Shown here one piece after another: positions 4,474 through 22,100 of a stretch of DNA of 28,560 bases. Under the pieces are notes generated by a model. It saw only the letters and a list, made by a program, of their open reading frames with translations. It was not told where the DNA came from and did not search any database. This stretch comes from a virus, in the IMG/VR virus record IMGVR_UViG_3300006916_000272, positions 1 through 28,560 of that record; one strand, given 5' to 3'. A program made the translations under genes and the position numbers. The first letter of the stretch is position 1; each line of letters begins with the position of its first letter.

Positions 4474-4636
4474 CGTACTGTCCGCCGCTATTGAGGCAGG
4501 TATACATTACGGTTATGTAAGAGCGCACAAGCACACGGATACCCCCACACGTGCGCAGTTAGAAGGGGAAATAGAGCGTGAGATTTGGAACGCTATTCAT
4601 GAAGTATTTATATTCGAGGATTTTACAGATGACTGA
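4454..4636 (+). CDS. Small conserved-type phage protein (60 aa)
   Basis: The start is a GTG at 4454 with GGAGG seven bases upstream. The 60-residue product has the pattern AIEAGIHYGYVRAHKHTDTPT followed by an acidic helical C-terminus (EIWNAIHEVFIFED). Small phage and plasmid proteins with a similar 'G..YG..RAHKH' core are known to me as conserved hypotheticals of unknown role. This is a recollection, not a search. It overlaps the gene before by 20 bases and the one after by 8 (ATGACTGA), consistent with a coupled string of tiny genes. Confidence 0.65.
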   Translation: MKVKTRSVLSAAIEAGIHYGYVRAHKHTDTPTRAQLEGEIEREIWNAIHEVFIFEDFTDD

Positions 4637-5132
4637 GCAAGATATTAAAAAGAAAATCAAAGACGCACACGACACCGCTGACAAGCTACTTACTAAGGAA
4701 GAGCTTAGAACCAGATGGAATAGGGTGAACGGATTCATGAACGAAGTGGTAGGTGTGGCAACAAGGTGGCACGTGTTAGCTGTAGTGAGTGTGTTAGTGT
4801 TAGCGTTCTGGTCGCCGTTCTCAAGTGCCGGTTGCACCGCAAAGACTGATTCGTGGGGTAACACTAGGTACAACTGCCACGATGGTAACTCTGGTACGCT
4901 GACCACGGATGCATGGGGTACTACGCGTGATAGTCGTACAGGAACTCGTTACAAGACTGACGCATGGGGCACTACACGTGGCTCTGATGGTACGAGTTGG
5001 AAGACTGACGCATGGGGTACTACACGTTTCAACGATGGTACTACATCCAAAACTGACGCGTGGGGCAACACACGATACAGTGATGGTACTGTGTGTAAGA
5101 CTGACGCATGGGGCACAACGAGGTGTAACTAG
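4629..5132 (+). CDS. Membrane-anchored protein with six TDxWGxTR repeats (167 aa)
   Basis: The ATG at 4629 is chosen because CGAGGA lies 8 bases upstream and it overlaps the previous stop. Upstream in-frame codons lie over the preceding gene. Residues 1-45 are charged and helical, 48-66 form a single transmembrane segment (WHVLAVVSVLVLAFW), and from 72 to the end the protein is almost entirely repeats: TDxWGxTR at 73, 93, 110, 126, 142 and 158, settling into a strict 16-residue period. Cysteines at 69, 83, 156 and 166 bracket the repeat domain. The topology suggests a cytoplasmic N-terminus and a periplasmic repeat domain, probably beta-structured. I recognise no named family. A role at the host envelope, such as exclusion or lysis, would be a guess. 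Confidence 0.72.
   Translation: MTEQDIKKKIKDAHDTADKLLTKEELRTRWNRVNGFMNEVVGVATRWHVLAVVSVLVLAFWSPFSSAGCTAKTDSWGNTRYNCHDGNSGTLTTDAWGTTRDSRTGTRYKTDAWGTTRGSDGTSWKTDAWGTTRFNDGTTSKTDAWGNTRYSDGTVCKTDAWGTTRCN
4845..5123 (+). repeat. Six tandem coding repeats, 48-base core period
   Basis: Copies of a motif encoding TDxWGxTR begin at 4845, 4905, 4956, 5004, 5052 and 5100. The spacing goes 60, 51, 48, 48, 48 bases, so the last four copies are in exact register. The core GACGCATGGGGC/T is nearly unchanged in DNA among copies 3, 4 and 6, whereas copy 1 is more diverged. This suggests growth by duplication toward the 3' end. Confidence 0.9.
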
Positions 5133-9398: not shown

Positions 9399-10934
9399 AT
9401 GGAAATAATTGATAACAAAGCATTACTCTTGCGACTACGTAACCCTAAGCACGTGACAACGGTTATACCTAAGAGTAAAGAGTTATCCAACAACCAAGTA
9501 CTTGTAAGTTGGGGATTGGAAGAGACGCACGTACTACGCAATTTAAATATAAAAGCTCCTTCACCTATACGTAGGGAGTATCAGTGGACAGGTAAGTACG
9601 AGCCGTTTGACCACCAAAAAGATACAGCGGCATTTCTTACTCTCAACAAGAAAGCATTCTGCTTCAACGAGCAGGGCACAGGTAAGACAGCCAGTGCCAT
9701 ATGGGCGGCTGACTATCTATTGGACAAGGGTAGAATCAACCGAGTGTTGGTTATATGTCCACTGTCTATTATGGATTCCGCATGGCGCAACGACTTGTTC
9801 ACCTTTGCTATGCACCGAACAGTTGACGTGGCCTACGGCTCTAAGGATAAACGTAGAGCAATCATCGAAGAGGGCGCAGAGTTTGTGATTATCAACTACG
9901 ATGGTGTGGAGATAGTACAAGACGCTGTGGCAAACGGGGGGTTCGACCTAATCATTATTGATGAGGCGACACACTACAAGAACCCACAGACTAAACGATG
10001 GAAAGTACTGAACAAGTTGGTCAAGCCTGAGACATGGCTATGGATGATGACGGGTACTCCTGCCGCACAGAGTCCGGTAGATGCGTTTGGTTTGGCTAAG
10101 TTGGTAAACCCCAACAAAGTCCCCCGCTTCTTAGGTTCGTTCCGTGATCAAGTGATGCGTAAGGTGACGAACTTCAAATGGGTTCCAAAAGATACTGCGA
10201 CGGATACCGTACATAGAGTGCTACAACCTGCAATACGTTTCACGAAGGATGAGTGTCTAGACCTACCCGACATGGTGTACGTCAAACGAGAGGTGGAGCT
10301 TACTCGTCAACAGAAGAAATACTACAAAGAATTGAAGACCCGCATGGTTATGCAAGCGGCAGGAGAACAGATCACGGCGGCAAACGCGGCGGTGAACATG
10401 AACAAGCTACTGCAAATATCTGCCGGCGCTGTGTATACCGACGAGGGCGATTCGCTAGAGTTCGACATCAAGCACAGGTACAAGGTGCTACGTGAGGTGA
10501 TCGACGAATCTAGCAAGAAGGTGCTCGTGTTCGTGCCGTTCAAGCACACCATCGACATGCTCACAGAGAAGCTACGTAAGGATAAGATAACCACCGAGGT
10601 AATTCGTGGTGATGTACCTGCATCCAAACGTACAGAGATATTCAAGCGGTTCCAAGAGAATGACGATCCACAAGTTCTGGTGATTCAGCCTCAGTCGGCG
10701 GCGCATGGTGTGACCCTAACTGCGGCGAATACAGTAGTGTGGTGGGGGCCAACAAGTTCCCTAGAAACCTACGCGCAAGCCAACGCACGTGTACATAGAT
10801 CAGGGCAAGATCAGAAATGTACCGTCGTCCAGCTAGCAGGTAGCCACGCAGAGAAACGTGTTTATGCGTTATTAGACAGTAGAATTGACGTACACACAAA
10901 GATGATTGATTTATACAAAGAAATACTTGACTAG
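9399..10934 (+). CDS. SNF2-family DNA helicase/translocase (511 aa)
   Basis: This is an ATP-driven double-stranded-DNA translocase of helicase superfamily 2. The motifs are complete: Q-motif-like YEPFDHQ (about 67-73), Walker A EQGTGKT (91-97), Walker B IIDEAT (DEAT, 188-191), motif III TGTP (218-221), and motif VI ARVHRSGQ (463-470), whose HRSGQ form is typical of SNF2 proteins. Length is normal for the compact phage version, which lacks accessory chromatin domains. GGAG lies seven bases before the ATG. Phage SNF2 proteins sit with replication and recombination genes and probably remodel or clear DNA at forks. It starts the second replication cluster after the structured gap. Confidence 0.94.
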   Translation: MEIIDNKALLLRLRNPKHVTTVIPKSKELSNNQVLVSWGLEETHVLRNLNIKAPSPIRREYQWTGKYEPFDHQKDTAAFLTLNKKAFCFNEQGTGKTASAIWAADYLLDKGRINRVLVICPLSIMDSAWRNDLFTFAMHRTVDVAYGSKDKRRAIIEEGAEFVIINYDGVEIVQDAVANGGFDLIIIDEATHYKNPQTKRWKVLNKLVKPETWLWMMTGTPAAQSPVDAFGLAKLVNPNKVPRFLGSFRDQVMRKVTNFKWVPKDTATDTVHRVLQPAIRFTKDECLDLPDMVYVKREVELTRQQKKYYKELKTRMVMQAAGEQITAANAAVNMNKLLQISAGAVYTDEGDSLEFDIKHRYKVLREVIDESSKKVLVFVPFKHTIDMLTEKLRKDKITTEVIRGDVPASKRTEIFKRFQENDDPQVLVIQPQSAAHGVTLTAANTVVWWGPTSSLETYAQANARVHRSGQDQKCTVVQLAGSHAEKRVYALLDSRIDVHTKMIDLYKEILD

Positions 10935-10984
10935 TGTGTTATATGTCACTAAAGTGTATTTCCCCTTACCAAGAGGTGCGAAGT

Positions 10985-11386
10985 ATGTCAGATAGTAGTA
11001 AACCAACAGCCGAGAAGCTGACAGAAGTTTATCTCAAGATACGAGATGAACGCTCAAAGTTATCGGCGGATTTCAAAGAGAAGGATAAAGACCTTCTAAG
11101 TAAGATGGACAAAGTCAAACGTGCTCTACTCGATTACTGTGCAGAGCATGGCCTTGATAGCGTCAAAACCCCTGCGGGATTGTTTTATAGATCTGTTAAG
11201 ACTAGGTACTGGACGAGCGATTGGGAGTCTATGTATCAGTTTGTTATGGAGAACGATGTTCCTGAGTTCTTCGACAAGCGTCTTAATCAGGCCAACGTAA
11301 AACAGTTCTTGGAGGAAAACCCTGAACAAGTACCCAAGGGTCTGAACGTAGACTCCGAGTACGTAATTGCAGTGAGGAAAAAGTAA
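10985..11386 (+). CDS. Helical hypothetical protein (133 aa)
   Basis: I place the start at the ATG at 10985, with GAGGT seven bases upstream. The frame is open back to 10934, but the extra 17 residues are Cys/Tyr-rich, unlike the rest, and lack a ribosome-binding site. The first 60 residues are a charged helix, possibly coiled coil (EKLTEVYLKIRDERSKLSAD). The second part (YRSVKTRYWTSDWESMYQFV, then PEFFDKRLNQANVKQFLEENPEQVP) looks globular. Similar proteins sit near SNF2 and SSB genes in other phages in my recollection. A DNA-binding or nuclease-inhibitor role is possible but unproven. Followed directly by an HTH gene. Confidence 0.65.
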   Translation: MSDSSKPTAEKLTEVYLKIRDERSKLSADFKEKDKDLLSKMDKVKRALLDYCAEHGLDSVKTPAGLFYRSVKTRYWTSDWESMYQFVMENDVPEFFDKRLNQANVKQFLEENPEQVPKGLNVDSEYVIAVRKK

Positions 11387-11632
11387 ATGGAAGAGTTTGT
11401 AACTGTAGAAGATGTAGCCAAACATTTTAAGGTATCCGTATCTACGGTACGTGCTTGGTTACGCAAAGGTATGATACCCGACAACACGTATGTTCGTATG
11501 GGTAGTGTGTACCGATTCCGGCTCAATGCTGTAGTTGATGCCTTGTTGAATGCGTCTGGTAATGACGACTCAGCTAAACTCTCTGACCCCGTAGAACTTG
11601 AAGAACTGTGGGATGCAGGAGAGGACGTATAG
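11387..11632 (+). CDS. Excisionase/MerR-type helix-turn-helix protein (81 aa)
   Basis: Residues about 4-50 form a winged helix-turn-helix of the HTH_17/excisionase kind: VTVEDVAKHFKVSVSTVRAWLRKGMIP followed by the wing segment RMGSVYRFRLNAV. An acidic tail follows. Such proteins are small DNA-binding regulators, excisionases or terminase-small-subunit relatives. No integrase is in the window, so a transcriptional or replication role is more likely here. The ATG follows the previous stop directly, with GAGG about ten bases upstream, and its stop overlaps the next GTG (TAGTG). Confidence 0.8.
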   Translation: MEEFVTVEDVAKHFKVSVSTVRAWLRKGMIPDNTYVRMGSVYRFRLNAVVDALLNASGNDDSAKLSDPVELEELWDAGEDV

Positions 11633-12294
11633 TGGATCGTCGTATCAGCATACGTAACGGTGAGATGCGATATATAAACGGTGACGTGACATCACAGGCC
11701 CAAGATTCTATGGATTTGGTTATTGTGAATGCGGCTCCTATATCTCGATCTTACTTCTCTGGAGAGTTCGACCCCGACAAGGTGCGTGCTCCCAAGTGTT
11801 GGTCAGCTAATACGCAAACTCCGGCGGAAGATGTACCGGAAGAGCAGAAGCAATCTGGTCGGTGCATGGACTGCCCCCAAAATGTTAGGGGTTCAGGTTC
11901 CAATGGAGGTAGGGCTTGTCGGTTCTCACAACGACTTGCTGTAGCGTTTGAAGACGATCTAACTGTAGTTTATAGACTACAACTCCCCGCTACTTCGATA
12001 TACGGTAGAGGTGGAAGCGGACATAAGCCGTTGCAGGAATACGTAAAGCTATTAGCCGCACGTGGTTACGGAGCAACGACTCTTGTCACAAGAGTATATC
12101 TTGATAAAGAAAGTGTAATACCCAAACTCTATTTTAAACCCGTACGCTCATTGAGCGGAGAAGAGTTGGAAGCAGTGGAAGATATATCCACGCACGCCGA
12201 CACCATTGAGGCAATACAGCAAGATAAGTATGTCTCAGCGGGAGCTACTTCTCCTTTCGGTGTGGTAGACGGATTTGAACTAGACGCAAATTAA
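11632..12294 (+). CDS. Cysteine-cluster protein adjacent to SSB (220 aa)
   Basis: The start is GTG at 11632, which overlaps the previous stop (TAGTG) and follows GGAGAGG. The frame is open 24 bases further upstream but lies over the HTH gene. Four cysteines, C56, C78, C81 and C96 (KCW...CMDCPQNV...GRACRFSQRLAV), form a likely zinc or Fe-S site. Phage proteins with this CxxCP...RACRFS pattern occur beside single-strand-binding proteins in my recollection. The C-terminal end carries SPFGVVDGFEL (207-217), which is repeated exactly in the next protein. I infer a DNA- or replisome-binding role together with the SSB. The exact activity is unknown. Confidence 0.75.
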   Translation: MDRRISIRNGEMRYINGDVTSQAQDSMDLVIVNAAPISRSYFSGEFDPDKVRAPKCWSANTQTPAEDVPEEQKQSGRCMDCPQNVRGSGSNGGRACRFSQRLAVAFEDDLTVVYRLQLPATSIYGRGGSGHKPLQEYVKLLAARGYGATTLVTRVYLDKESVIPKLYFKPVRSLSGEELEAVEDISTHADTIEAIQQDKYVSAGATSPFGVVDGFELDAN

Positions 12295-12312
12295 ACCAAA
12301 GGAAAAATTGAC

Positions 12313-12993
12313 ATGGCACATTTAATAAACAATGTAGAAATTCTTTACCCTCGTATCAACCAGTGTTACCGATTCGACAACACCGAGAACAAAAGCGTTC
12401 CGTGTGACCCGTTTGAGGATGGCGCTAAGTACGAGACAAAGTTCCGTATGGATAAAGACCAAGCCAAATCCCTATACAAAGCTATGGCTACCGCCTATGC
12501 AGAGCGTAGAGAGAAGTCTTGGCCCGAGAAGCTAGAGATGCCGTTCGAGCAGGATGACGAGGGCAAGTTTGTCGGTAAGGCTGTACTCAAGGGTGCGTAT
12601 GGTAAAGACGCCACCGCAAAGCCTAAGCAGTACGATGCTAAGAGCAAGGAGCTACCGACAGACTTTAAACTCACTACTGGTAGTGTAGGTAACATCGCAG
12701 TTGTGTTTGTACCTTACAACATGCGTGACAACGGTGTGTCACTACGTCTGAAAGCCGTACAGGTTACTAGGTACCAAGAGCCACAGTCTGCCGCTTCTCC
12801 GTTCGGTGTAGTAGATGGTTTCGAGTTAGAGGTTGACGACAATCCTTTTGAGGTGCAAACTCCAAAAGCTGCCAAACAAGAAGCAGTTAGTGACGACATC
12901 TTTGAGGAGCCTAAGAAGGTAGTAAAGAAGGCGGCGCCAGCCCCCAAGAAAGATGCCGACTTAGCTTCAATCGTAGATGAGTGGGACGACTAA
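12313..12993 (+). CDS. Single-stranded-DNA-binding protein, DUF2815 / T7 gp2.5-like (226 aa)
   Basis: The N-terminal 155 residues fit the DUF2815 family of phage SSBs, distantly like T7 gp2.5: beta-rich, with KFRMDKDQAKSLYKAM and a KDFKL..GSVGNIAVVFVPY-like core near 115-135. The C-terminus is a flexible Lys/Ala/Pro segment ending in an acidic tail (SIVDEWDD), as expected for an SSB that docks replication partners. Residues 162-172 are SPFGVVDGFEL, identical to a segment of the neighbouring upstream protein. AAAGGA precedes the ATG. It coats single-stranded DNA at the fork and probably contacts the polymerase and primase-helicase encoded nearby. Confidence 0.85.
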   Translation: MAHLINNVEILYPRINQCYRFDNTENKSVPCDPFEDGAKYETKFRMDKDQAKSLYKAMATAYAERREKSWPEKLEMPFEQDDEGKFVGKAVLKGAYGKDATAKPKQYDAKSKELPTDFKLTTGSVGNIAVVFVPYNMRDNGVSLRLKAVQVTRYQEPQSAASPFGVVDGFELEVDDNPFEVQTPKAAKQEAVSDDIFEEPKKVVKKAAPAPKKDADLASIVDEWDD

Positions 12994-13093: not shown

Positions 13094-15925
13094 ATGGATA
13101 CAAAAACATTTTTGGAAAGCACGTTGGGGAACGATGGCTATTACTGCCTGCTTGCCATAAATAAAAAGACAGGGCATAAACCCCAAAAGTTCTTCGACTC
13201 AGTAGGACATCTAATAGATGAGGCCACTGAATATGATGGCAAAGGTTACGACACCTACTTCGCATTGAGTACCTTTGCAGAATCAAATTCTCGTAAAGTA
13301 AACAATGTGAAACAAGTTAAGTCCCTATTTCTAGATATAGATTGTGGGGAAGGGAAGGACTACGCTACGCAAGCCGAAGCGGTACAGGCGTTAGCTAAGT
13401 TCTGTAAGAAGTTAAGCCTCCCACGTCCGCTGTTAGTAAACTCTGGCAGAGGTGTTCACGTGTATTGGAGGTTACTAGAGACAGTGTGTCTCGATGAATG
13501 GCAACCCGTGGCGGCACGACTAAAGCAGTTGTGTAACGAACATGGATTCAAATGCGATAATTCAGTCACCGCCGATGCCGCTAGGGTACTACGAATACCC
13601 AACACCCATAACCATAAGACTGTACCACCATCGCCTGTGGCGTACTTCGGTGCTGTCCCTACAGCCGTGGACTTTGACAAGCTGTCCGATCTGCTAGGTA
13701 TAGATCAGATACCAGTTCCCACGGTTAGGCCATCCACCAACAGTTCGGTAATGGACGCATTGTTACCCAACTACAAGAGCTATTTCAAAGATATACTGCG
13801 GAAGAGCAAGGAAGGGCGTGGGTGTGAGCAGTTGGTTCAGGTGCTACGTGACCCCGACAGTGTGAGTGAACCCACGTGGTTCGACGCCGTATCCATCGTG
13901 AAGCATTGCGAGGATGGTGGCAGAGTTGGGGTGCATAAGTTGTCCAAGGGGTATTCCAATTACGACCCCGAAGAGACAGATAGTAAGTATGACACAACCA
14001 AATACGTTCACCTATGTAGTAGCTTTGACTCTAACAACCCCGGCATATGTCAGGACTGTCCCAACTGGGGTAAGATAAAGTCACCTATTACGCTAGGTAA
14101 TCGTGTTGAACGTGCTACCGCTGAAGATAATGTGGTAGAGGTTACAGTGGAGGCTCCGGCGTTAGACCTACCGGACACCCCAACTAATACGTACACCATA
14201 CCCGAATACCCCAAGCCATACTTTCGTGGTAAGAATGGTGGCGTATACACCCGATCCGTTGACGAAGAAGGCGATCCTGTGGACAAGTTACTGTACCACA
14301 ACGACCTGTACGTAGTTCGTAGGCTACGCGATGTGGAGATCGGGGAGGCTATAGTTATGAGACTGCACCTACCGAAAGACGGGGTGCGTGAATTTACAGT
14401 GCCACTTACTGCCGTGACATCTAGGGATGAGTTTCGTAAGCAGATGTCCATGCAGGGTGTGGCAGTTACTAAAATGGACGAACTAATGCAATATACCACT
14501 ACATGGGTAAATGAATTACAGGCCACCAACGTGGCAGACGAAGCTAGGCGGCAGTTTGGTTGGACAGATGATAACCACAACACGTTTGTGGTAGGGAACC
14601 AAGAAGTGTGGGCAGACCGTATAGGGTTTAACCCTCCCTCTACTGCAACCGCAGGGTTGTTTCATATGTTTGAACCGAGGGGCACGATGGATGAGTGGAA
14701 GCAGAACGCTGAGTTCTATAACCGAGATGGATTCGAGATGCACCAGTATATCGTTGGCACTGCGTTCGGCTCTCCGTTAATGGAGTTCTCTCCTATCAGT
14801 TGTGCGGGGTTTCACATCCACAGTAAGGCAACGGGTATTGGTAAAACAACCGCCATGCTATGCGCCGCTTCTGTATGGGCTAAACCTAAAGAGTACATGG
14901 TTGAAGAGCGAGACACGCAAGCAACTCGTATGAATCGTGGCGAGGTATACCACAGCTTACCGCTGTACATTGATGAACTTACAAACGCCAAAGGCGACGA
15001 GTTGTCCGACTTGGCTTATCAACTGTCTGGAGGTAAACAGCGTAACCGTATGTCTGGCAGTAGTAACGTCGAACGTGTACGTGGTAGACCTTGGAGCCTG
15101 TTGGCAGTGAGCACGGGTAACACTAGTTTTGTTGAGCGTGTAAGTATGGTTAAGGACATGCCAAAAGCGGAAGCACAGCGCATGATGGAGACTCGTGCCG
15201 TTAAGAAGTTCTCCGACACCGCCGATAAGAGAGAGACAGATAGGTTCGCCAATAGTGTAGAGAATGTGTACGGGCATGCGGGTATACCTTACATCCAGTA
15301 CATCATGGCTAATAAAGAAGAGGTCAAGGCTCTCATACAGAGAGTGCAGTTAAACATTGACCGTGAAGCAGGGCTTACACCTGAGAACAGGTTCTGGTCA
15401 GCGGGTGCGGCGTCGACCATAGCAGGAACCATAATCGCCAAGCGTATAGGGCTGGTGAACTACGACATAGGAAAGTTGACCAAGTACGTTATACGACTCT
15501 TAAAAGAAAACCTACAGACTGTACAAGGTATGGACTGTTCCGCTTCTGATACTTTGAACGATTACATCCACGAGCACTGGGGTAGCATCCTCAAGATCAA
15601 GAGCACTGACGATCTACGTAGGAACAATGCCAATGGGCTAGACACACTAGTTATACCTGAGTTAGACCCGAAAGTTAGATTGGTAGGTAGGTACGAGACT
15701 GATATTAAAAAGGCATACCTTGTGCCAAAACCTCTCAAGGCTTGGTGTGGTAGACAGCAGATAAACTACGGTGCGTTTGTACAAGACCTGAAGGATAACT
15801 TTGGCGCTAAGTCTATAAAGATGCGGCTCACTAAAGGCACGCCGACACAGTTACCCCCATCCACGGTGCTTTCGGTGGACTGTAACCTAGAAGAGGCGCC
15901 TAGTGACGACGAGAAAGATAAGTGA
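13094..15925 (+). CDS. Primase-helicase: AEP-like primase plus P-loop helicase (943 aa)
   Basis: The N-terminal part looks like an archaeo-eukaryotic-type primase domain: FLDIDCGEG (metal-binding D81 and D83), SGRGVHVYW (117-125) and TADAARVLRIPNTHNHK (about 165-181). A cysteine cluster (LCSSF...ICQDCPNW, about 308-326) resembles a small zinc site. The C-terminal part is a P-loop ATPase of the DUF927/phage helicase kind: ATGIGKTT (K584, T585), which lacks the first glycine of a classic Walker A, and Walker B LPLYIDELTN (D627, E628), followed by LLAVSTGN, a sensor-1-like segment. It would prime and unwind at the phage fork. The acidic C-terminus (PSDDEKDK) overlaps the next gene by 23 bases. 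The ATG is preceded by a structured leader. Confidence 0.88.
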   Translation: MDTKTFLESTLGNDGYYCLLAINKKTGHKPQKFFDSVGHLIDEATEYDGKGYDTYFALSTFAESNSRKVNNVKQVKSLFLDIDCGEGKDYATQAEAVQALAKFCKKLSLPRPLLVNSGRGVHVYWRLLETVCLDEWQPVAARLKQLCNEHGFKCDNSVTADAARVLRIPNTHNHKTVPPSPVAYFGAVPTAVDFDKLSDLLGIDQIPVPTVRPSTNSSVMDALLPNYKSYFKDILRKSKEGRGCEQLVQVLRDPDSVSEPTWFDAVSIVKHCEDGGRVGVHKLSKGYSNYDPEETDSKYDTTKYVHLCSSFDSNNPGICQDCPNWGKIKSPITLGNRVERATAEDNVVEVTVEAPALDLPDTPTNTYTIPEYPKPYFRGKNGGVYTRSVDEEGDPVDKLLYHNDLYVVRRLRDVEIGEAIVMRLHLPKDGVREFTVPLTAVTSRDEFRKQMSMQGVAVTKMDELMQYTTTWVNELQATNVADEARRQFGWTDDNHNTFVVGNQEVWADRIGFNPPSTATAGLFHMFEPRGTMDEWKQNAEFYNRDGFEMHQYIVGTAFGSPLMEFSPISCAGFHIHSKATGIGKTTAMLCAASVWAKPKEYMVEERDTQATRMNRGEVYHSLPLYIDELTNAKGDELSDLAYQLSGGKQRNRMSGSSNVERVRGRPWSLLAVSTGNTSFVERVSMVKDMPKAEAQRMMETRAVKKFSDTADKRETDRFANSVENVYGHAGIPYIQYIMANKEEVKALIQRVQLNIDREAGLTPENRFWSAGAASTIAGTIIAKRIGLVNYDIGKLTKYVIRLLKENLQTVQGMDCSASDTLNDYIHEHWGSILKIKSTDDLRRNNANGLDTLVIPELDPKVRLVGRYETDIKKAYLVPKPLKAWCGRQQINYGAFVQDLKDNFGAKSIKMRLTKGTPTQLPPSTVLSVDCNLEEAPSDDEKDK

Positions 15926-19100: not shown

Positions 19101-22100
19101 CGCTACCTTTTAATTTCTTCTGTGCATCGCCTATAGAACTAATCAGGCGTGCCGCCCCAGCTCGAGTACCGTCAAACTCTGGGAACTGGACTATGCCTTG
19201 GTCGGCAGGGATCAGCATGCTGTTTATCACGTTGTCCACTTCGGTAAGTAGGGTGGGAGAGGGTTCTAGCCCCATAAGTCTGCGCACCATGTTTATTACT
19301 GTGGTGCTGAACTGCTCCCATAGAGACTTACTGTCGGCAAATTTTCCATCGGGATGTACTCTGCTGAGGAGCTGACGGAAGTCGCTACTAGTAAATGCCT
19401 CTGCCACAAACTCGTTTATGTTTGTTAGTCCGTAGTGTGTCTCTGCATCAAGCCCTCTGTCCTTAGCTACTTTCTGGAAGTCTTCCCACAACTTAGCAAT
19501 TCTTTTAGCGTTAGCCGTAGTGCCTAGAACCTTACCCGTATCAGGATCCATGTTTAATTCGTATAAGGTAAGGGCGTGAGTCATCTCATGCAGGAGCGTA
19601 TGTACGCCTCCGTTCTCCTTCCCATTTATAAATATAGTATCTCGAAGGTTGGCAGGCATGTTACTACCAGAGTGTACATATACCCCCTTGACAACATCGG
19701 TTTCTTTAACAGCAAACCTACTCATAAACTCGGGAGAAGCGACAACTACTTTAGTACTACCAACCTTTCTAGCCATTGCACTAGCTATGTTCTTGACGCG
19801 AGGGCTTTTGGTGGACGTAGCGATAGCATTCAAAGCAGCCACTAAGTCTCCGTCATTTATGGCACGGATGGCTCCTATAGGTAGAGGTTCGGATAGAGCG
19901 GCAGCATCTTTTTTGGATACAAACCTGTCAAACAGAGACGTCTTACCGACCCGTGCAAAGAACTGTTCAGCGGTCTCTCTTTCTCCCGTCCTTTGCTGTG
20001 CTTCATACGAAGCCTTACTGTCGTTGTTTACAGAGTTAGCTATAACGCCTTCAACAGCTACAGGGTCAAACGTAACACCCGTCTCCTCGAGGCGCTTTTT
20101 CTCTGCCGCAACTAGTTTCTTGATCTTCGCTTCATTGGCTTGCTGCTGTTTATCTGCTTCTTTCTGTTCAGCCGTAGGTTGCTTTTTAACTACCTTTTCA
20201 GCTTTCTTGGTATCCTTAACGTCTTTTTTCTGCTGCTGTTCTTTTGCTCTCTTATCAGCGGCTTCTTTACGCTTCCTACGTGCAACACGTTTAGCGGCGG
20301 GGGACTCGCCTCCTTCTAGCTCCATCTGTGCTAGCTTTTTCTTTTGCTTCTCGTTAGCTTCGGCTAGCTCGGCAGCAGCTACTTCTTCACGTAGTTTCTT
20401 CTTTGTGTTCTCCACAGCCTTAGCGTCTTCCGCTTTGTCCGTTTCGATTTGTTTGTCTATAGCCGCGTTGGTTTCGGCAGGCAAATTATTTTTAGCCCAC
20501 TCTATTACAGCCTCAGCGCTCTTACCACCTGTGCCTCTACGTTTAACTTCGATTGGGTCTACAGCGCCTTTCACATTTCTAACCGCTGGCATGTCATTAG
20601 CCACTTCAAAAGCGGCAGCACGTAGGGCGCTCTCTGGGTTAGCGTAGGCGTTTAAGTACTTAGCTATAACCCTGTTGGTATTGAACTTATCTTTTGCGTC
20701 TTCGTAGCGTGGCACTGACTCTGCCGGACGCTTCTTGCGGAACTCTCTGTCTTTGCCCTTTTCATCGACGTACTGGGCCACATCAGATACGGGAGCCAAA
20801 GCAGTGCGGTCTGCATCCGCAAGTTTAATTGGAGTATCAACAACTAACTTACCAGTCTCAGGATCAACAGTACTCATACCCGGGGTTGGCTTTGTGGGGG
20901 TTGTTGTGGCAACAGGTTGTGGCGCTACTTTAGTTTTGGGCGCAGGTTGTACCTTTTTGGGCGCAGGTTGTACCTTAGCCTCTTCCACTACGGGCGCAGG
21001 TTGTACCTTTTGCTTGGGTACCTCAATACCCTTATCGGCTAATGCCTTTTGTGCGGCAGGAGGTAACTCGGGTAGTTCTTGTCGTTTAAGTTCAGGGGTG
21101 GTCTTAGGCGCAGCGGGGGTCTTGAGTCCTTGCTTTTTAACTCCAGTCTTGGACTGCATACCCGGCAGGGGTTCCTGCTGCCCACGTTCTTTCGGCTTGC
21201 GTTCTTTAACCTGCGCTTCTAGTTCTGCTTGAGCTGCCTTATCTTCGTCGGCGATAACCATACGCTCTATTTCTAGGTCTTCGGCTTCTCTAGCGGCATC
21301 TTCTTCCCGCTGCATTCGCGCTAGCTCAATGTCTTCGGCGGCGGTTCTCTCAGCGACCTGTTTATCTTGTAACTCTTCGTACCGTGCTTGGTCAACCATG
21401 TCGCCTTCTGGCTTCATCTGGTCGTCATCTTCTAGCCGCGCTAGTCTTTCTTGCTCCGCGTCTTCCATAGCCATAGTGTCGGCTAATTCTTCGTCGGTAA
21501 CTTCTTTGGGTGTTCGGTCTGTATCTGGGAATAAGTCCCCCGCTTCCTGCTGTTCTCTAGCTAGCTCGGCTTCAGCTTGCTTACGGTTTCTCTGGTCAGT
21601 AGGGGAGCGTACATCTTCACTGGGCATATCACCGAGGACTTTTTCGTCCTCTATTTCTTGTTGTCGTCGAGCCTCGTCCGCGTCTCTCCTAGCCTGCTCT
21701 GCTTCAGCAGGGGTACGTGCGGTTCCCTCTTCATCCACAACAATGGTAGTGTCTGGTGCGGGTAGTAGTCCGGCTACTCTTTCTTCTGGTGGTACTTCAT
21801 CCTCGAGATGGCCTTCTACGTCTTCAGGTTTAACTCCTCGTGATCTACTACCGCCCGGCAAGAACAAATCAAGCGTAGCACCGACGATGCCGCCGATAGT
21901 AGCTTCTTCACCCACACCCCCAAAGGTTTCGGCAAGGGCGTTGTATTCCTGTTCGTTGAGGTTTTGCAGGACACCTGCTGTAGCTTCTTGAGCAGCCTCG
22001 AATCCGCCGGATAGAGCGGCACTATGGATTTTCTGCCCCATAGTCTCTACAGTTTCAGGGCCAATGTTGTTTGCTAGTTTGGTTATGACAGGGACGTCAA

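Follow-up and report, generated by a model that had tools for sequence, protein, structure and literature searches.

The described systems closest to the SSB analysed here are T7 gp2.5 and other T7-type SSBs (phrog_112; structures 1JE5 and Enc34 ORF6, 5ODJ), which combine an OB fold with an acidic, aromatic C-terminus. In crystals of the Enc34 SSB, of two DUF2815 proteins and of T7 gp2.5, C-terminal segments are inserted into neighbouring molecules; the authors suggested cooperative assembly, called the biological role of the contacts unproven and named no motif (PMC5686142). Because the T7 gp2.5 construct stops at residue 206, its crystal contact must involve the segment behind the OB fold and not the acidic tip. 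In gp32 of phages T4 and RB69, a zinc-binding His-Cys3 cluster is inserted in an OB-like core, which is preceded by an N-terminal extension and followed by an acidic tail. Docking peptides of SSBs are already known as a kind: E. coli SSB has at the end of its disordered tail a conserved tip (DDDIPF), short, acidic and aromatic, that serves as a docking handle. To our knowledge, the post-OB segment of T7-type SSBs has not been described in any other protein.

We analysed a 28,560-nucleotide stretch of DNA, referred to as the window (positions 1 to 28,560 of IMG/VR record IMGVR_UViG_3300006916_000272), from a marine virus infecting bacteria. Two neighbouring genes encode a T7-type SSB and a Cys-cluster protein, P1, which both carry the peptide SPFGVVDGFEL, here called the tag (Table 1). 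The tag is real, conserved and functional-looking. Its striking feature is that an unrelated SSB-like protein shares the peptide and does so strictly in company with the SSB.

Table 1. Features of the P1/SSB gene slot and its flanks, in window coordinates
Feature	Position	Strand	Remarks
Helix-turn-helix (HTH) gene	11387..11632	+	Upstream flank of the P1/SSB slot; synteny marker
P1, 220 aa	11632..12294	+	phrog_27714 (function unknown); GTG start overlaps the HTH gene stop
Four invariant Cys of P1	11797..11919	+	Invariant in 104 homologues; C56 (11797-11799), C78 (11863-11865), C81 (11872-11874), C96 (11917-11919)
Tag copy 1, SPFGVVDGFEL	12250..12282	+	P1 residues 207-217; pLDDT ~45 in the P1 model
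gp2.5-like (T7-type) SSB, 226 aa	12313..12993	+	phrog_112, E=5.1e-16; own profile against 1JE5, E=1e-4
Tag copy 2, SPFGVVDGFEL	12796..12828	+	SSB residues 162-172; directly behind the last OB strand
Second element, NPF	12841..12849	+	SSB residues 177-179; downstream of the tag, conserved in most relatives
SSB C-terminal tail, EPKKVVKKAAPAPKKDADLASIVDEWDD	12907..12990	+	Same tail type ends P1 where the gp2.5 SSB is absent
DUF927 primase/helicase gene	13094..15925	+	Downstream flank of the slot; synteny marker; candidate alternative partner

Two proteins with one peptide

Translation of the two genes bears out the positions and residue numbers that the earlier note gave for both copies, the P1 numbering being reproduced by a start at GTG 11632, which is most plausibly the start of P1. 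The tag lies 3 residues ahead of the stop in P1 and 54 residues ahead of it in the SSB. Its codons are TCT CCT TTC GGT GTG GTA GAC GGA TTT GAA CTA in P1 and TCT CCG TTC GGT GTA GTA GAT GGT TTC GAG TTA in the SSB; as the same note had claimed, 7 of the 11 differ, each silently. For two proteins of about 220 residues with cores that do not align, an 11-residue identity exceeds chance by far; the motif is also present in both partners wherever a related phage encodes the two. Common descent of the two cores was considered and rejected, profile-profile comparison aligning the tag alone. A scan for PFx(1-5)[DE]G[FYW] hit no further ORF of the window, and a third carrier was found neither in the window nor in loci within 3 kb; annotated phages gave no match at the DNA level or to a 23-aa peptide.

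The SSB has the features of the T7 type, namely a match to the family profile, a predicted OB fold with a long helix, and an acidic and aromatic C-terminus that is conserved (DLASIVDEWDD). The predicted fold scores Z 16.9 against 1JE5 (T7 gp2.5) and 13-14 against the Enc34 and DUF2815 SSBs. The long helix lies behind strand 2, at residues 275-292 of the P1-SSB chain model described below. A Pfam search of the SSB returned no family at E up to 1, DUF2815 included. It shares with T7 gp2.5 and its relatives the position and core of the motif, whereas the SSBs of this clade add [SN]P ahead of the Phe, the second NPF element (with F179 invariant and P178 conserved to at least 90%) and a tail that is rich in Lys and closes with WDD.

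P1 is modelled (mean pLDDT 81.5) with an OB-like core rich in beta structure, from residue 1 to about 195, followed by a disordered end with the tag; the Cys-rich insert is modelled with lower confidence, and the Cys cluster is a probable zinc site. Against the PDB, the P1 model scored highest with the phiC31 recombination directionality factor (RDF; Z 7.7), followed by RB69 gp32 (6.9-7.0), BRCA2 OB domains (6.0) and T4 gp32 (4.7). Among described SSBs, T4/RB69 gp32 is thus the best match (Z about 7, 147-154 residues aligned), and P1 resembles it in having a Cys cluster inserted in an OB-like core. However, there is no sequence match between gp32 and P1, the Z values are weak and P1 has four Cys. 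The window P1 is also without the N-terminal extension and the acidic C-terminal partner tail, ending instead in the tag (ELDAN). As the Z values lie below the level that divides true kin from common arrangements, a gp32-like P1 is a lead from modelling. We infer that P1 is a second, predicted SSB; in related phages it seems to serve as the SSB. The top structural match, the phiC31 RDF (gp3; 9teh_I), has only 12% identity to P1; such RDFs may share this OB-like fold, and no integrase partner was seen in the window.

The tag as a local form of a post-OB segment

We aligned the SSBs of this clade with those of CRP-125, LUZ100, Pasto, pelagiphages and other contigs. The tag columns of the other SSBs read FxxEEGF, FAVEDGF or FEEIKDGY, immediately behind the last OB strand, and a segment of the general form FxxExGF occupies this place throughout the T7-type SSBs compared. 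Autographiviridae SSBs have FAVEDGF, FDKEDGF, FGEEEGF, FGAQEGF or FEEIKDGY in these columns and T7 gp2.5 has WADEVEENGYV. The SSBs of roseophages CRP-811 (SDPFAVADGYT) and CRP-406 (SPFGATQGSF), which are free of P1, keep a version of the tag. Because the segment is found across the T7-type SSBs compared, P1 is the odd carrier of an old feature of these SSBs, of which the SSB copy is the clade form, a relationship that the earlier note had missed. A literature search found no named motif of this kind and no description of the segment.

Neither copy of the tag has the form of an SSB C-terminal tip, in which an acidic run and a terminal aromatic or hydrophobic residue stand at the extreme C-terminus: DAN follows the tag in P1, and in the SSB it is internal. 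In contrast to the E. coli tip, the tag needs no free C-terminal Phe and its Gly is fixed, and the window SSB has a separate tip. The SSBs of CRP-811 (20001-20612 of locus L162) and CRP-406 (5986-6639 of L163) end in the bacterial-type tips DDDIPW and DFDDEIPF, with no WDD tail; these possibly recruit partners of the host SSB.

Constraint on the peptide

The conserved core is [SN]-P-F-x-x-V-[DE]-G-[FY] and not a private 11-mer. Its fixed points are F3, G8 and an aromatic residue at position 9, and F164 and G169 of the SSB tag are invariant in 65 SSBs. Every related phage found to encode both partners has the motif in both (99 distinct P1 tails). Comparison of homologues bears out selection on the peptide, as had been proposed, and identifies it as a short linear motif under purifying selection within disordered sequence. 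The earlier note had made this claim vulnerable to homologues that lack the motif or vary freely at its residues, and it withstood the comparison.

Complete identity of the P1 and SSB tags is exceptional (2 of 92 non-redundant phages, with the window counted and inserted residues ignored), the usual identity within a phage being 5-8 of 11. The within-phage value is slightly higher than that of re-paired phages (6.59 versus 6.25 of 11). Where position 6 is E or T, P1 and SSB of one phage show the same variant, for E in 5/5 cases (Fisher 2e-5, kinship ignored), but an independent-pairs analysis leaves only about three informative events. Variable positions shift in the same direction when both change, in events too few for significance. 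MAFFT tended to misplace P1 tags onto the SSB tag, which trimming avoided.

Three arrangements of the gene slot

We fetched about 280 related loci. The slot is bounded on one side by a coiled-coil/HTH pair behind an SNF2 helicase and on the other by the DUF927 primase/helicase. In arrangement A, that of the window, a short tagged P1 accompanies an SSB that bears the tag and the WDD tail; where an SSB is present in the locus, 99/99 distinct P1 tails are the tag or a degenerate form that keeps F, G and the aromatic residue (for example, SIFAEVDGFVY). In arrangement B, P1 occupies the same slot alone and is tagless; it is extended by about 38 residues at the N-terminus and closes with an SSB-type tail, EPKKVxKK..LxDIVDxWDD; among 39 distinct tails of P1 without gp2.5, the tag is missing and the tip is a WDD of SSB type. 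In arrangement C, the SSB stands alone with tag and tail, and P1 is absent.

No gp2.5 was found in 14 P1-alone records, of which several metagenomic ones are fragments and in which the P1 tail itself matches the SSB profile, and PF00436, the bacterial-type SSB family, had no match in the P1-alone records tested. The complete P1-bearing genomes KPP25, Effie and TM3_14A likewise yielded neither gp2.5 nor a PF00436 SSB, the phrog_112 search of these genomes having as its positive control that of the P1-alone record search. On a tree of P1 cores the A and B states need four changes, at least three of which are forced by well-supported branches. Thus, the P1 tag repeatedly tracks the presence of the gp2.5 SSB. 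The retention of the tag in SSB-alone phages means that the SSB tag is independent of P1.

The N-terminal extension is conserved in P1-alone loci (L020, L030, L052, L061 and others; for example, MSDLTLFENNALATSDLFKSLNDVNDNLLSG) and missing from the window P1. Together with the acidic C-terminal tail it gives P1 of these phages a likeness to gp32, and by analogy with the N-terminal domain of gp32 it may be an element for self-association. The tail EPKKVVKK..LASIVDEWDD is common to the window SSB and to P1 of other phages (L020-L080), and this module moves between non-homologous proteins in one slot.

Candidate docking partners

We give about an even chance to the reading that the SSB-like P1 acquired the docking segment of T7-type SSBs and that, in phages with both proteins, this segment docks most likely on the gp2.5 SSB. 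The tag would be the local form, [SN]PFxxV[DE]G[FY], of a post-OB docking segment, a copy of which P1, a structurally different OB-like Cys-cluster protein, would have gained at its C-terminus. The segment of the SSB would dock in a groove on the neighbouring SSB subunit, leading to chaining on ssDNA. Through its tag P1 would dock onto the SSB and thereby enter, or be recruited to, SSB-coated DNA, and in P1-alone phages P1 would rely on its own extension and tail. The starting points, observed directly, are the position of the segment in SSBs of several groups, the constraint on the tag, the distribution of the P1 tag, and the retention of the SSB tag without P1. Because the SSB is always tagged and P1 is tagged only where a gp2.5 SSB is encoded, docking on the SSB itself is the simplest model for arrangements A, B and C, and we infer that the segment binds the SSB core. 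The shared peptide probably ties P1 and the SSB together on DNA. In an AlphaFold2 model of a P1-SSB read-through chain, in which TAA was read as Ser as a modelling device that implies no readthrough in the phage, both tags are disordered (pLDDT 37-55, pTM 0.47) and there is no fixed domain arrangement; therefore, no docking site is predicted.

The earlier note had offered the polymerase or the primase-helicase as docking partner, or P1 and the SSB for each other. The distribution favours the mutual docking. The tag could nonetheless bind a third replisome protein (the family A polymerase, the DUF927 primase/helicase, the SNF2 helicase or the PD-(D/E)XK exonuclease), P1 and SSB being handed to the same enzyme. 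In T7, T4 and E. coli, replication enzymes are recruited by the SSB tail (PMC5686142), the P1 and SSB genes directly precede the primase/helicase gene, SSB-alone phages retain the tag, and no docking onto the P1 or SSB cores was predicted. Yet the SNF2 helicase, coiled-coil and primase/helicase genes are still present in P1-alone phages, although their P1 is tagless, which mildly disfavours the polymerase or primase-helicase as partner, and a recruiting role fits the separate SSB C-terminal tip, which P1-alone phages keep instead of the tag. P1 of these phages might, on the other hand, be tagless for the simple reason that its own tip does this work with a third partner. As the read-through model, the covariation at position 6 and the tag similarity gave no support to docking on the SSB, we regard a shared replisome partner as a serious, though less likely, alternative.

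It is considerably less probable that the tag derives from the C-terminal tip of the SSB (LxSIVDxWDD) as a variant with the same binding site and that P1 of this clade swapped acidic-aromatic tails. Tag core and tip are alike in the pattern [GS]-[VIL]-V-[DE]-x-[FW]-[DE], and a matrix of P1 tags ranks the tip best in 27/64 post-tag SSB sequences against 1.2 expected. However, the scores are negative, the invariant Gly of the tag is not fixed in the tip, and the tips of P1-alone phages do not rank first. Tag and tip moreover coexist side by side in the SSBs, which by keeping both indicate that the two are not redundant. Inheritance or copying with no shared partner, whether by gene conversion, partial SSB duplication or chance, is very improbable. 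Occasional conversion would also give the slight within-phage excess of tag identity, but the codon differences, the unlike flanks and cores, and the fixation of F, G and the aromatic across highly divergent phages amid variable disordered sequence all speak against it.

Docking of both tags on the SSB can be extended to a wider and more doubtful proposal, in which two SSB-like proteins with unrelated cores would form one mixed ssDNA-coating system. The peptide would chain the SSB of SSB-alone phages, admit P1 to the SSB array in two-protein phages, and give way to a self-association extension and an SSB tail in P1-alone phages. Behind the OB fold of T7-type SSBs, the analysis suggests a conserved docking segment that seems not to have been described before and that is separate from the well-studied acidic tip. 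The natural experiment of phages with SSB alone, P1 alone or both makes its binding partner testable. It also provides a function hypothesis, that of a second SSB, for phrog_27714, a phage family of unknown function.

Other genes in the window

The best PHROG match of the gene at 10934-11386 (+) is phrog_13900, 'minor head protein'; the gene is, however, part of the replication cluster and weakly matches Mu Gam/Gp157-like proteins, and the name is probably a misannotation. The predicted protein encoded at 4578-5132 (+) has a hydrophobic stretch followed, in its C-terminal half, by imperfect tandem KTDAWGTTRxxDGT repeats.
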